DNA of 64,000 bases from positions 1,116,001-1,180,000 of the forward strand of contig NZ_CP142146.1 of the NCBI RefSeq assembly GCF_035918315.1. Direction: 5' to 3'. Below, one piece after another: positions 7,495-51,442 of this stretch. Numbering within the stretch: the first letter of the stretch is position 1; each line of letters starts with the position of its first letter. The DNA comes from Vagococcus jeotgali (lineage in GTDB: Bacteria > Bacillota > Bacilli > Lactobacillales > Vagococcaceae). The notes beneath the pieces were generated by a model. It was not told the DNA's origin and ran no database searches. It was given only the letters and a program-made list of their open reading frames with translations. Both the position numbers and the translations under genes were made by a program.

Positions 7495-8259
7495 CTAAAA
7501 GTGAAACATAAGTATACCAGCAGCGACCGCTACGTTTAAAGATTCTGATAGACCCTTCATTGGGATATAGATTTTTTTATCTACAACTGCTAGAAGTTGT
7601 GGTGATACACCTTGCCCTTCATTTCCCATGATAATAGCTGTTGGTGTCTGTCTATTTAGCTCTTTAAATGACATAGCTTGTGAATCTAAAGCAGAAGCGA
7701 CAACTAATAATCCCTTTTCTCTCGCTTCTTTTGTCCACCTCACTAAATCAATGTGTGACAAAATATTAATATGAAATTGACTACCTTGCATAGCACGCTG
7801 TACTTTAGAGGCATATAAATCGGTCGTGCCTATACCTAAAACAACTGTTGAAAATCCTGCTGCATCAGCCGTTCTAATCATTGTTCCTAAATTACCTGGG
7901 TCTTGAATGTTATCTAGAAGTAAATAATGTTGTTGTGTATCTAATATATCAAACTCTTGTTGCTTCTTCACAACAGCAATTATTTCTTGGGGTGTTGGTA
8001 ATTCTGATAAGTCTTTTAATAATTTATGAGGAATAATCACACATTTTTCATCCTCAATTCTAGAAATCAATTGACTATACTTAATTAATCCCTCTTCAGT
8101 TGTGATAATCCAAGCAATATCTGCATGATAATCAAGTGCTTCCTCAACAAGATGCTCACCTTCAATCAAATAGGTTTGTGTCTCATCACGAAATTTCTTT
8201 TTATGTAATTTTTTTATTTGTTTCATCCACTGGTTAGATGCTGATTCAATTATTTTCAT
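7495..8259 (-). CDS. TrmH/SpoU-family RNA 2'-O-methyltransferase
   Basis: A 254-residue SPOUT methyltransferase that transfers a methyl group from S-adenosylmethionine to a ribose 2'-OH in rRNA or tRNA. An amino-terminal substrate-binding domain (to about 100) is followed by the knotted catalytic domain with motif 1 NIQDPGNLGTMIRTADAAGF, motif 2 IIMGNEGQGVS and motif 3 IPMKGLSESLNVAVAAGIL. The knot motifs are intact. The target nucleotide is unknown. It is divergent from acylphosphatase, the usual neighbour in related genomes. ATG 8259 has AGGAGG 7 bases upstream. Confidence 0.9.
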   Translation of the reverse strand: MKIIESASNQWMKQIKKLHKKKFRDETQTYLIEGEHLVEEALDYHADIAWIITTEEGLIKYSQLISRIEDEKCVIIPHKLLKDLSELPTPQEIIAVVKKQQEFDILDTQQHYLLLDNIQDPGNLGTMIRTADAAGFSTVVLGIGTTDLYASKVQRAMQGSQFHINILSHIDLVRWTKEAREKGLLVVASALDSQAMSFKELNRQTPTAIIMGNEGQGVSPQLLAVVDKKIYIPMKGLSESLNVAVAAGILMFHF

Positions 8260-46711: not shown

Positions 46712-49144
46712 TTGGATGATTTAAATGAGTCAAATCATTTAGAAAATAATGACCCCACTAATCAAACGAGAACAGATTATTTACAAGAAGAAAAAGCACA
46801 TAAAGAAAAAAACAAGTTTTTCTTTTCAGTTAATGTGATATACCGAGTTTTAAAATCAATTATCATTGTTTTATTTATTGGTCTCTTAGCTTTAGGAATG
46901 TTTGGTCTTGGTGCAGGTGTTGGGTATTTTGGATCTCTAGTTAAAACAGTAGAGGTACCTGATAAAAAAGATTTGGAGAAACAAATTCATGATTTAGACC
47001 AACAATCTAGAATGACTTATGCAGACGGTTCCTTGATTTCTGTTATTCAATCAGATTTAGTCAGAACAAAAGTGATAGGAAAAAGTATTTCACCACTTAT
47101 TAAAAATGCTTTAGTTGCTACGGAGGATGAAAATTTTTATGAGCACCAAGGTATTGTCCCTAAAGCTATTGCAAGGGCCACCTTATCTGATATCTTAGGT
47201 GTTGGTAGTACATCAGGTGGTTCAACGATTACTCAACAGCTGGTTAAGCAACAATTATTAACAAATGAAACTTCATATAAACGAAAAGCTTCTGAAATGT
47301 TACTGGCTTTAAAAACGGAGGAGACTTTTTCAAAAGAAGATATTTTAGTAACTTACTTAAACGTCTCTCCTTTTGGTCGTAATAATCACGGGGAAAATAT
47401 TGCTGGTATTGAAGAAGCTGCCCAAGGGGTATTTGGTGTCTCTGCTAAAGATGTCTCACTTCCTCAAGCTGCCTTTTTAGCAGGTCTTCCTCAAAGTCCA
47501 ATTGAATATACACCATACACAAATGAAGGAACGATGAAGGAAGATGTTGAAGCTGGATTAAATCGAAAAAATGATGTGCTTTATAATATGTACCGAAAAA
47601 AATTCATATCTAAAGAAGAGTATGACAAAGCTAAAGAATATGATTTAAAAAAAGATTTTATTCCAGCTAGCCCAAAAGAAATTTACAACACTGGTTTTTT
47701 GTATAACTACATATATGATGAGGCTGCTAGGGTATTAATGCCAACCTATTACGAAGCAGATGGTATTACAGAAGAAGAAATCAATGATTCTGAGCAGCTT
47801 TACCTTAAATATTTTGAAAAAGCAAAAACAGACATTAGTCGTAATGGATATACTATCCACTCAACAATTGATAAAGATATTCATAATGCCATGCAAGAAG
47901 CTGTAGATCAATATGGGTATGTACTAGATGATGGTAGAGGACAGACGATTGAGACAGGTAGCGTCTTAATGGATAATAAATCTGGAAGAATATATGGCTT
48001 TATTGGCGGGCGTAACTATAGTGAAAATCAAAATAACCATGCTTTCCAAACAAGACGTTCTCCAGGTTCGACTATGAAACCAATATTAGCTTATGCTCCA
48101 GCCATTGACGTGGGCTTAATTGGTTCTGAATCTAGATTATCAGATTATCCATTAAAATATCATAGCGGGCAAGAAGTTAAAAATTATTCAGATAAAGGAA
48201 GCAATAGTTTTAAAACAACAAGAGATGCTCTGAAATGGTCCTTAAATATCCCTGTGGTCAATCTTTATAATCAGTTACTAGAAGAAACGGACCCTAAAAT
48301 CTATTTTGATAAAATGAATATAGGACTAAACCCTGATGAATATTACAGAGAATCAATTCCTCTTGGAGGTACAGATCATGGTTTAACTGTTTTAGAAGAA
48401 ACAGAAGCATATGCTACTTTAGCTAATAAAGGGATTTATAATGCAGGCTATTCTATTGATAAAATTGTAAACAATGATGGTGAGACAATTTTTGAACATG
48501 AAAAAAATCCTGTTGAGGTATTTAAACCAGCTACTGCTTCTATCATGAATGATATGATGCGTGATGTTTTAAAAAGTGGAACAGGTCAAGAAGCTAGAAA
48601 TACTTTATATAATCATAGCGCAACCTTAGCTAATGCTGATTGGGTTGGAAAAACAGGGACTTCTGAAAACCAAGAAGATTACTGGTTTACAGCATCAACA
48701 CCTACCATTACCTTAAGTAGTTGGATAGGTTATGATGAACCAACAGAGATGTATAAAACATGGAACAAACAAAACATGATTTATTGGGCTGATGTTACTA
48801 ATTACGTCTATCAAAGACACCCAGATATTTTCGGTGTTGATCAAAAATTTAGTTTAGACTCTTCGGTTAAAAAAGAAAAAGTTGCAGAATTCACAGGAGA
48901 AAAGCCTGGTATTGTACAAGTTGATGGTAGACGTATTGATTTAAAAGGCTCAAAAGAGACAACTAATCTATACGCTACTGACGAAGTACCTTATAGCCAG
49001 TTTAGATTTGGTATTGGTGGCACCGATAGCAACTATCAGGACGCTTGGCGCTCATTCACTCCCTATACCAGACCACCTGAGAAAAAACCCGCACCAAAAG
49101 AAAAACCTAAAACAAAAAAAGAAACAAAGAAGAAAAAAAGCTGA
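46712..49144 (+). CDS. Bifunctional class A penicillin-binding protein
   Basis: An 810-residue peptidoglycan synthase with one membrane span (about 46-75), a GT51 glycosyltransferase domain (ATEDENFYEHQGI about 136-148; GGSTITQQLVKQQLL 169-183) and a transpeptidase domain. The active-site Ser is S453 in SPGSTMKP; SLNI (SxN) and KTGTSE complete the site. It most resembles streptococcal PBP2a. The tail is basic and proline-rich. Start is a TTG at 46712, 7 bases after GGAGG. Its terminator has been split by an IS3 element inserted at the stop codon. Confidence 0.92.
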   Translation: MDDLNESNHLENNDPTNQTRTDYLQEEKAHKEKNKFFFSVNVIYRVLKSIIIVLFIGLLALGMFGLGAGVGYFGSLVKTVEVPDKKDLEKQIHDLDQQSRMTYADGSLISVIQSDLVRTKVIGKSISPLIKNALVATEDENFYEHQGIVPKAIARATLSDILGVGSTSGGSTITQQLVKQQLLTNETSYKRKASEMLLALKTEETFSKEDILVTYLNVSPFGRNNHGENIAGIEEAAQGVFGVSAKDVSLPQAAFLAGLPQSPIEYTPYTNEGTMKEDVEAGLNRKNDVLYNMYRKKFISKEEYDKAKEYDLKKDFIPASPKEIYNTGFLYNYIYDEAARVLMPTYYEADGITEEEINDSEQLYLKYFEKAKTDISRNGYTIHSTIDKDIHNAMQEAVDQYGYVLDDGRGQTIETGSVLMDNKSGRIYGFIGGRNYSENQNNHAFQTRRSPGSTMKPILAYAPAIDVGLIGSESRLSDYPLKYHSGQEVKNYSDKGSNSFKTTRDALKWSLNIPVVNLYNQLLEETDPKIYFDKMNIGLNPDEYYRESIPLGGTDHGLTVLEETEAYATLANKGIYNAGYSIDKIVNNDGETIFEHEKNPVEVFKPATASIMNDMMRDVLKSGTGQEARNTLYNHSATLANADWVGKTGTSENQEDYWFTASTPTITLSSWIGYDEPTEMYKTWNKQNMIYWADVTNYVYQRHPDIFGVDQKFSLDSSVKKEKVAEFTGEKPGIVQVDGRRIDLKGSKETTNLYATDEVPYSQFRFGIGGTDSNYQDAWRSFTPYTRPPEKKPAPKEKPKTKKETKKKKS

Positions 49145-49146
49145 CT
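49133..49146 (+). terminator. Left half of a terminator split by IS3
   Basis: AAAAAAAGCTGACT joins, if the insertion and one copy of GACT are removed, with AGCTAGTCAGCTTTTTTT at 50425-50442 to make a perfect bidirectional hairpin between pbp and ccpA. Alone this half has no partner. Confidence 0.85.
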
Positions 49147-49232
49147 TGAACTGACCCAAAATAATAAGACACAATAAAAAAGCACTTTCTGTTGAATTCG
49201 ATTAAAATGAATTTAACAGGAGGTGTTTTTTG

Positions 49233-49556
49233 ATGGGAACAAGAGTAGCATACCCAATCGAAGTGAAAAATAAGGTCATTGAATTAAAATTATCTGGAAT
49301 GACAACTAAAGAAATAATGGTAGAGTTAAATATTAAAAATAAAACACAAGTTGAAACGTGGTGGCGTTGGTATAGAAATGGAGAAACCCATAGGTTCCTC
49401 CAACCAGTTGGAAAGCAGTATAGCTTTAATAAAGGACCTGAATATGTGTCTGAAACAGAACAATTAAAAGTTGAAAATAGGTTTTTAACTCAGCAACTAG
49501 AGATACTAAAAAAGTACAACGAATTGGAAAGGATGTGGAGCCAAAAGTATTCATAG
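49233..49556 (+). CDS. IS3-family transposase OrfA
   Basis: A 107-residue helix-turn-helix protein that binds the ends of the element: YPIEVKNKVIELKLSGMTTK then TQVETWWRWYRNGE, ending in a leucine-zipper-like stretch LKVENRFLTQQLEILKK. ATG 49233 is behind AGGAGG. The heptamer A AAA AAG at 49508-49514 lies in this frame and should shift ribosomes by -1 into orfB. Confidence 0.92.
   Translation: MGTRVAYPIEVKNKVIELKLSGMTTKEIMVELNIKNKTQVETWWRWYRNGETHRFLQPVGKQYSFNKGPEYVSETEQLKVENRFLTQQLEILKKYNELERMWSQKYS
49508..49514 (+). other. Programmed -1 frameshift site of IS3
   Basis: A AAA AAG in the orfA frame fits the slippery heptamer. Slipping back one base joins LEILKK to VQRIGKDVEPKVFIELV of orfB, making the OrfAB transposase, as is established for IS3 and IS150 relatives. 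Confidence 0.8.
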
Positions 49557-50377
49557 AGTTAGTCTCTAGTATGAAGGGGAAAATAACTGTTACTGAGTTG
49601 TGTCGCTTATTCCAAATACCTCGTTCTACGTATTATAGATGGCTTAAGGATAAAAATATTGGTGAATTAACAGAGTTAGAATTAGACATACAAAGACTAT
49701 GTTTAGAAAATAAATATAGATATGGTTATAGAAAAATCACTGCTCTCTTAAATAGGGAGAAAAAAGTAAGTAAAAATACTGTCCAACGCATCATGCAAAA
49801 ATATAATTGGAATTGCAAAGTAAAAGTTAAAAAACGTAAAAAAATGGGACAACCTTTTAAGGTTGTTGAAAATAAATTGAACCGTCATTTTACTTCTAAT
49901 AAACGATTCCAAAAGCTAGTGACAGATATTACTTATCTACCTTTTGGGAGAAAGCAGCTCTATTTATCCTCTATCATGGATTTGTATAATGGTGAGATTA
50001 TTGCCTACAATATTGGTGAAAAACAAGATATTAATTTTGTACTTGAAACGTTGGAACAATTACCTGAAGTAACAGATTGTTTACTACATAGTGATCAAGG
50101 ATCTGTTTACACTTCATACCGTTATCAAAAAGAAGTACAAAGAAAAAGCATTACCATGAGTATGTCCCGCAAAGGGACACCATCAGATAATGCTTGTATC
50201 GAATCGTTTCATTCCTCTCTAAAGTCTGAAACGTTCTACCTAGATAGGCTCAATAATGAACCTACATCTATTGTAATACAGACGGTTATAGATTACATTA
50301 ATTATTATAATAAAATTCGAATTCAACAAAAATTAGACTATAAATCTCCGATAGAATATCGTAAATCTATAGCCTAA
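49535..50377 (+). CDS. IS3-family transposase OrfB (DDE domain)
   Basis: The 280-residue catalytic part, probably made mostly as an OrfAB fusion. It has HTH_21-like RYGYRKITALLNREKKVSKN and an rve core with D in VTDITYLPFG, D in LHSDQGSVYTS and E in DNACIESFHSSLKSE, 35 residues after the second Asp in family fashion. No damage is visible. Confidence 0.93.
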   Translation: MEPKVFIELVSSMKGKITVTELCRLFQIPRSTYYRWLKDKNIGELTELELDIQRLCLENKYRYGYRKITALLNREKKVSKNTVQRIMQKYNWNCKVKVKKRKKMGQPFKVVENKLNRHFTSNKRFQKLVTDITYLPFGRKQLYLSSIMDLYNGEIIAYNIGEKQDINFVLETLEQLPEVTDCLLHSDQGSVYTSYRYQKEVQRKSITMSMSRKGTPSDNACIESFHSSLKSETFYLDRLNNEPTSIVIQTVIDYINYYNKIRIQQKLDYKSPIEYRKSIA

Positions 50378-50420
50378 CACATGCTTTTTTGTTTGTGTCT
50401 TAATTTATTGGGTCAGTCCC

Positions 50421-50442
50421 GACTAGCTAGTCAGCTTTTTTT
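50421..50442 (-). terminator. Right half of the terminator split by IS3
   Basis: GACTAGCTAGTCAGC followed by seven T. For ccpA, which is read leftward, the second arm and U-tract were on the other side of the insertion, so its terminator is lost. Confidence 0.8.
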
Positions 50443-51442
50443 ATTTAGTTGATTGACGTTTAATCATGCTGTGAGGTAAAATGATTTCTTCCTCTTCAAT
50501 TTCTTCTTTATTCATTAATTTTGTTAAAAGACGCATTGATACAGCACCAATATCGTATAAAGGTTGAGAAATACTTGTAATACTTGGTCGTGCCATATCG
50601 GCAAACAACGTATTATTACTTGTAATTATCTCAAACTCCTCTGGTACTTTAATCCCTCGATCAGTTAAGCTATTCATCAAACCAACAGCTAAAACATCAC
50701 TAGACACCATAGCAGCAGTTGCTCCACTATTCATTATTCTCTCATGTAAACCAAGCCCTGATTTATAATCATACTCTGCCTCAAAGACTAAGCCTTCATT
50801 GAAATCAAGTTGATAATTAGCTAATGCTTTTTTATAACCATTTAGGCGGTAAACCCCATTAATAGGATCTACTAAAGGTCCTGATACAAAGGCAACTTTT
50901 TTATTACCAGTAGAGATTAATGTTGTTGTTGCTTCTTCCGTTGCTTTTTCATAGTCGATATTAACTGAACCAACTTGATTGTCAGGGTCTATTGAACCTG
51001 CTAGAACAACAGGGGTTTTAGATTTTGAAAACTCTCCTCTAATTTGTTCAGTTAAATGGTTACCCATAAACATAATACCATCTACTTGTTTAGCAAGTAA
51101 TGTATTTAACACGTTTATTTCTTTCACATCATCACCATCAGAATTAGCTAAAATGATATTATATTTATACATCGTTGCCACATCATCTATTCCTCTAGCT
51201 AAAGATGCAAAGTAAGTATTACTTACATCCGGAATGATAACGCCAATAGTTGTCGTTTTTTTACTTGCTAATCCACGCGCAACTGCATTTGGACGATAAT
51301 CTAATTTATCAATAACTTCAAGAACTTTTTTTCTTGTTGCAGGCTTCACATTTGGGTTACCATTGACAACACGTGATACAGTTGCCATAGATACGCCAGC
51401 TTCTCTAGCCACATCATAAATTGTAATAGTTTGTTTTTCCAT
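50441..51442 (-). CDS. ccpA: Catabolite control protein A
   Basis: A 333-residue LacI-family master regulator of carbon catabolite control; with HPr phosphorylated at Ser46 it binds cre sites. The headpiece ITIYDVAREAGVSMATVSRV and hinge YRPNAVARGLASKKTTTIG are classic CcpA, as is the IPDVSNTYFASLARGIDD start of the core. A cre-like site overlaps the upstream promoter, suggesting autoregulation. Its normal terminator is disrupted by the IS3 element. Confidence 0.95.
   Translation of the reverse strand: MEKQTITIYDVAREAGVSMATVSRVVNGNPNVKPATRKKVLEVIDKLDYRPNAVARGLASKKTTTIGVIIPDVSNTYFASLARGIDDVATMYKYNIILANSDGDDVKEINVLNTLLAKQVDGIMFMGNHLTEQIRGEFSKSKTPVVLAGSIDPDNQVGSVNIDYEKATEEATTTLISTGNKKVAFVSGPLVDPINGVYRLNGYKKALANYQLDFNEGLVFEAEYDYKSGLGLHERIMNSGATAAMVSSDVLAVGLMNSLTDRGIKVPEEFEIITSNNTLFADMARPSITSISQPLYDIGAVSMRLLTKLMNKEEIEEEEIILPHSMIKRQSTK

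Follow-up and report, generated by a model that had tools for sequence, protein, structure and literature searches.

An IS3-family element splits a terminator-like hairpin shared by pbp and ccpA in Vagococcus jeotgali and probably selects such hairpins by shape

Insertion sequences (ISs) of the IS3 family are commonly described as loose in their choice of target. In another family, IS1630, an IS30-type element of Mycoplasma fermentans, reportedly inserts at rho-independent terminators of varying sequence and duplicates the whole inverted repeat. Palindrome targeting is already known among IS3 elements: IS1397 and ISKpn1 insert into palindromes, a specificity ascribed to the transposase in the available part of one paper (PMC1525189), and an excerpt of a second reports no insertion preference in the family except for IS911 and IS150 (PMC10379815). 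Here we describe an IS3-family element, a new member of a known group, in a 64,000-nt stretch of Vagococcus jeotgali contig NZ_CP142146.1 (the window, whose coordinates are used throughout), where it lies inside a terminator-like hairpin between the convergent genes pbp and ccpA. We propose that this intact element, from the side of the transposase tree that holds IS150 (IS150-side below), picks terminator hairpins by shape, breaks the host hairpin and brings a terminator of its own, a reading to which we assign a probability of about 0.8.

The insertion site comprises the following features:

46712–49144, plus strand: pbp, class A penicillin-binding protein, whose stop codon lies within the left arm of the split hairpin (PBP1B model, 887.6 bits, below the model cut-off of 1225)
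49133–49146, no strand: left half of the split terminator-like palindrome, seven A (49133–49139) followed by GCTGACT (49140–49146)
49143–49146, no strand: left copy of the target duplication GACT, read directly
49147–50420, plus strand: IS3-family element of 1,274 bp, with ends TGAACTGACCC and GGGTCAGTCCC
50421–50424, no strand: right copy of the target duplication GACT, read directly
50425–50442, no strand: right half of the split palindrome, AGCTAGTCAGC (50425–50435) followed by seven T (50436–50442)
50441–51442, minus strand: ccpA, convergent with pbp (TIGR01481, 533.7 bits, cut-off 442.35)

Direct reading of these letters bears out the original prediction that an IS3 element sits inside a bidirectional terminator-like hairpin shared by the two genes, and that excision of the element with one GACT rebuilds a perfect palindrome. 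The rejoined site, AAAAAAAGCTGACTAGCTAGTCAGCTTTTTTT, is identical to its own reverse complement over all 32 nt, with A7 and T7 at its ends, and contains both stop codons (pbp TGA at 49142–49144; ccpA stop at 50441–50443, minus strand). For the modelled empty site, the two strands give folds of −18.3 and −16.5 kcal/mol; in the present window no perfect palindrome without a loop is longer than 16 nt, a length reached by two. Flank complementarity at the insertion scores 33; of 3,000 positions drawn at random from the window, 0.4% reach 26 or more. Only one copy of the element is present in its genome, as a chance meeting of one element with one palindrome would have it, but the rarity of such scores and the recurrence of the pattern in relatives make this highly improbable for the locus; for the group as a whole, repetition in relatives refutes chance.

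A hairpin with a T-run stands right behind the ccpA stop, as judged by eye, in eight of 13 same-genus genomes (our labels G002, G003, G005, G006, G007, G010, G011 and G013), which makes a terminator behind ccpA the usual state in the genus. The 32-nt palindrome was seen in none of these eight; the position of the hairpin is conserved among these genomes, its sequence is not. In the remaining five (G001, G004, G008, G009 and G012) the spacer is interrupted or a hairpin is found only farther away. Two of these spacers are apparently interrupted by other DNA: that of G009 (L100, around 171–230) holds an end resembling those of IS3 elements together with a weakly matching OrfB remnant (E 0.056), and in that of G001 (L005, behind ccpA) half of a G007-type hairpin is followed by foreign sequence.

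The arrangement recurs in relatives. We oriented 190 loci of OrfB (transposase) relatives and located element ends with a motif score blind to the flanks; after removal of 48 duplicates and 37 loci without both ends, 105 non-redundant insertions were left, with OrfB identities of 44–100%. Their cognate flanks have a median complementarity of 27, versus 15 for swapped flanks (Mann-Whitney p 6e-21), and 63 of the 105 exceed the 95th percentile of the swapped distribution, 52 the 99th. Because the swapped control, in which the left flank of one insertion is paired with the right flank of another, retains the A and T tracts, the excess is due to matching stems. With flanks of 30 nt, the swapped 95th percentile is reached by 64 of the 105, by 35 of 45 insertions from nine further IS150-side lineages, by none of 49 control insertions in five groups and by one of four in a sixth. 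At a fixed limit of 26, picked after the scores of the 105 insertions were known, a strong score is found in 84 of 150 case insertions and in none of 53 controls (Fisher p 1e-15).

The nine lineages (G568B, G725B, G593B, G000B, G707A, G707B, G497A, G497B and G691B; 45 usable insertions) had been fetched as negative IS3 controls; they were rejected as such because they themselves lie in hairpins, and were counted as cases instead, a reassignment supported by the later tree. G283B, another IS3 group among the intended controls, remained negative. Replacement controls were the own-genome IS3 group G000C, IS256 and PF01609 groups. The 53 control insertions all involve other transposases and come from genomes in which cases were found too. 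Both ends were usable in four of five G707A, five of eight G497A and 22 of 24 IS256 copies; extra G746 and G676 copies (L328–L333) are uncounted. One group, G691_IS4, was excluded from the controls since it duplicates a whole hairpin. This G691 PF01609 element (1,547 bp between compared copies) has a complete terminator-like hairpin on each side in nine of nine copies (L398, L403, L406, L409, L412, L414, L417, L420 and L423), and seems to duplicate the terminator rather than split it.

Hairpin targeting is thus not peculiar to the pbp/ccpA locus. Six G746 sites, for instance, carry six different stems, not the one repeated palindrome family that marks targeting of repetitive extragenic palindromes (REPs). 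In the V. jeotgali genome itself, all three copies of a second IS150-side element have complementary flanks, and such flanks are found in none of eight copies of another IS3 group and none of 22 IS256 copies. These counts bear on the idea that insertion occurs anywhere and that copies persist only in harmless intergenic spacers, where terminators lie. The pbp/ccpA site and loci L107 and L108 are indeed between convergent genes, and a 3′ spacer is a mild landing place, but the IS256 copies and the other IS3 group of the same genome lack hairpin flanks. The position of the cut points in the same direction. Duplications among the 105 relatives measure 3 bp in 45, 4 bp in 32, 2 bp in six and 5 bp in two, with none in 20, and 71 of the 84 strong sites have 3 or 4 bp. 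Among the 76 insertions with 3–4-bp duplications and clear arms (arm-score limit 24), the junction falls within 2 nt of the loop centre in 36, versus 40 of 234 randomly shifted junctions within the same sites. Such clustering is not required by harmlessness alone, and we regard survivorship as quite unlikely.

A different question is what would be recognised. Runs of at least four A on the left and four T on the right flank 74 of the 84 strong sites, which makes them terminator-like, not bare palindromes, and fits recognition of terminating transcription, through paused RNA polymerase or an RNA hairpin, in place of a DNA hairpin. Recognition of this kind might leave a strand preference, yet none is seen: the longest A-run on the left exceeds the T-run on the right in 31 of 84 sites and the reverse holds in 26, a test that two-way terminators blunt. 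Moreover, in the part of PMC1525189 available, one of two tabulated IS150 copies lies in a REP palindrome. We consider recognition of transcription somewhat unlikely, and infer that the hairpin itself is recognised, perhaps extruded as a cruciform or exposed in single-stranded DNA during replication.

The OrfB tree (37 proteins, built without the ISfinder reference set and rooted for drawing only) places the hairpin inserters with Escherichia coli IS150, ISKpn8 and ISEnfa3 on one side of a 100/100 branch, and ISEfa8 with two negative IS3 groups on the opposite side. The transposase of the window element thus groups with IS150 and apart from ISEfa8, with about 37.5% identity to IS150 and ISKpn8. 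E. coli IS150 adjoins hok-family genes at seven fetched plasmid sites (of 19 annotated rows; the seven copies represent only a few distinct sites) and in MG1655, and ISKpn8 does so at the one site fetched. At several of these IS150 and ISKpn8 sites (L424 6634–8076, L425–L432) the flanks resemble hairpin halves. The right end of the MG1655 IS150 copy adjoins a sokA remnant, and the hairpin halves beside IS150 perhaps derive from the sok terminator.

The left end of the window element carries a hairpin of its own, directly before orfA:

49177–49231, plus strand: terminator-like leader hairpin, with an A-run on the 5′ side and a T-run on the 3′ side
49219–49225, plus strand: GGAGGTG, Shine-Dalgarno (SD) sequence of orfA, inside the leader stem
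49233–49556, plus strand: orfA, helix-turn-helix protein, with an ATG start (the open reading frame list starts at TTG 49230)

IS elements are known to conceal start signals in hairpins. The leader folds at −27.2 kcal/mol (z −7.9; none of 200 shuffles is equally stable); GGAGGTG lies in its 3′ arm and is followed by TTTTTTG, the T-run ending two bases before the ATG. On the minus strand the same region folds at −11.7 kcal/mol and is followed by TTTTTTATT. Across 32 chosen representatives, the window element included, leaders fold at −15.8 to −34.7 kcal/mol, the SD sequence is at least 80% paired in all 32, an A-run of at least four precedes the hairpin in all 32 and a T-run of at least four follows it in 30. 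In an alignment of 13 of the 32, 94.9% of cells pair, versus 36.5–54.3% when the partner is slid by one to three columns. A T-run of at least five stands behind the leader hairpin in nine of 12 further IS150-side elements; G497A, G497B and IS150 lack the run.

These features alter what the insertion is expected to do to transcription. The original prediction held that termination is lost for both genes, so that the pbp transcript drives the transposase and ccpA is read antisense through the element. The host hairpin is indeed split, and a simple scan of the minus strand detected two weak terminator candidates deeper inside the element (49866–49849 and 49402–49379) but none at its right end. 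However, the first structure that a pbp transcript would meet is the leader, whose hairpin, T-run and buried SD sequence predict that incoming transcripts either terminate or have their ribosome site masked; most read-through from pbp is expected to be halted there or left untranslated. Transcriptional driving of the transposase by pbp is therefore not supported: we would expect the end of the pbp transcript to move by some 90 nt rather than run through into the transposase. Loss of termination likewise stands for the host hairpin and not for the site as a whole, where the leader is predicted to supply a terminator-like replacement. The ccpA part fares better in its first half, as the lack of a right-end terminator in the scan makes antisense entry into the element probable; the minus-strand form of the leader may then stop these transcripts ahead of pbp. 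Overall, we judge a loss of termination with these consequences unlikely.

We suggest the following course of events. The transposition complex would pick hairpin-forming intrinsic terminators by shape and not by sequence, and the element ends would be joined across 3–4 bp in or near the loop; at the pbp/ccpA site, the cut at GACT would have fallen next to the loop, on the 5′ arm of the shared terminator. The host hairpin is thereby broken, and the left end of the element would supply its own terminator-like hairpin, which would also hide the orfA SD sequence. One terminator would thus be traded for another, with a leader offering termination in both directions, so that the convergent genes may stay partly insulated and outside transcription may yield little transposase. 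For the IS150-side group in general, we lean towards the same view, namely that these elements seek terminator hairpins of any sequence, cut across the loop and swap in a two-way, SD-masking terminator.

Several observations weigh against this proposal. Strong scores are lacking in 66 of the 150 case insertions; by eye, some of these sites resemble imperfect terminators and others do not. Under a looser terminator criterion, 77 of 105 cases qualify, but so do 42.7% of swapped flanks (as many as 92% in individual groups) and four of 53 controls, and G725B and G497A do no better than swapped flanks. Copies within one genome are not fully independent. The window junction is itself off-centre, with a left arm that begins flush with the duplication and a right arm 8 nt away from it, and its arm score of 23 is just below the limit of 24. 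Five insertions of the IS150-side element G631 (L167, L254–L257) lie outside terminators, four of them in GCAAC-type sequence, which suggests another target. The leader stems of the close set show modest covariation, with both sides altered in two of 21 pairs. Finally, the element has TG at its left tip and CC at its right, not the TG...CA form of IS3 ends; terminal CA is given as general for IS3 elements in an excerpt of PMC6211511, and many relatives end in GG...CC. Placement in the IS3 family rests on the transposase, and the tips diverge.

Comparison with described elements sets the proposed preference apart. IS1397 and ISKpn1 target a repeated sequence family, whereas in the group of the window element each site has its own stem. 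IS1630 has a transposase of another family, and in place of a duplicated inverted repeat the window element duplicates 4 bp only, its group 3–4 bp. IS150 lies on the same side of the tree as the window element, as does ISKpn8, but its leader folds at only −16.7 kcal/mol and is without a T-run of five. ISEnfa3 has a related transposase, a leader hairpin with a T-run and, at the one site read, flanks that are palindrome halves; ISLmo1, a named relative in plasmid records, also has a related transposase, although its Apilactobacillus site shows no clear hairpin by eye. The open-licence literature searched, from which most subscription papers and the ISfinder and TnPedia texts are missing, yielded no account of IS3 elements that target terminators, nor of a whole group that prefers intrinsic terminators irrespective of sequence and carries a replacement terminator; both may be known elsewhere. 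If true, such a preference would explain where these elements accumulate, how gene breakage is avoided and why spacers between convergent genes bear their scars; it would offer a simple, testable model of DNA-shape-guided transposition and direct the search for effects to the 3′ ends of neighbouring genes.

The remaining features of the element are those of an intact IS3 member:

49508–49514, plus strand: A AAA AAG slippery heptamer in the orfA frame, predicted to serve −1 frameshifting into orfB
49535–50377, plus strand: orfB, DDE transposase (NF033516, 269.3 bits, cut-off 160)

As in other IS3 elements, orfA and orfB overlap with orfB in the −1 frame, the target duplication is short (4 bp), and OrfB has a D,D(35)E arrangement, counted in translation as 35 residues from the D of HSDQG to the E of CIESF. 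Because the reading frames, inverted repeats and duplication are all intact, the insertion looks recent. The closest relatives found, at about 73% DNA identity, are on Enterococcus faecalis plasmids. The source genome (G000, 2.0 Mb) is rich in ISs, with 47 matches to an IS256-type model and 50 to an IS3 model, many of them partial. On a 48-kb contig of G008 (C2), four copies with identical flanks lie at 7813, 19191, 30568 and 41913, a spacing of about 11.4 kb, which points to plasmid multimerization, amplification or faulty assembly. Matches of 40–70 bp to the subterminal regions of the element (G011:C1:1180866–1180929, G007:C1:1393665–1393723 and others), some on both strands and all without a transposase match, are possibly decayed or miniature relatives.

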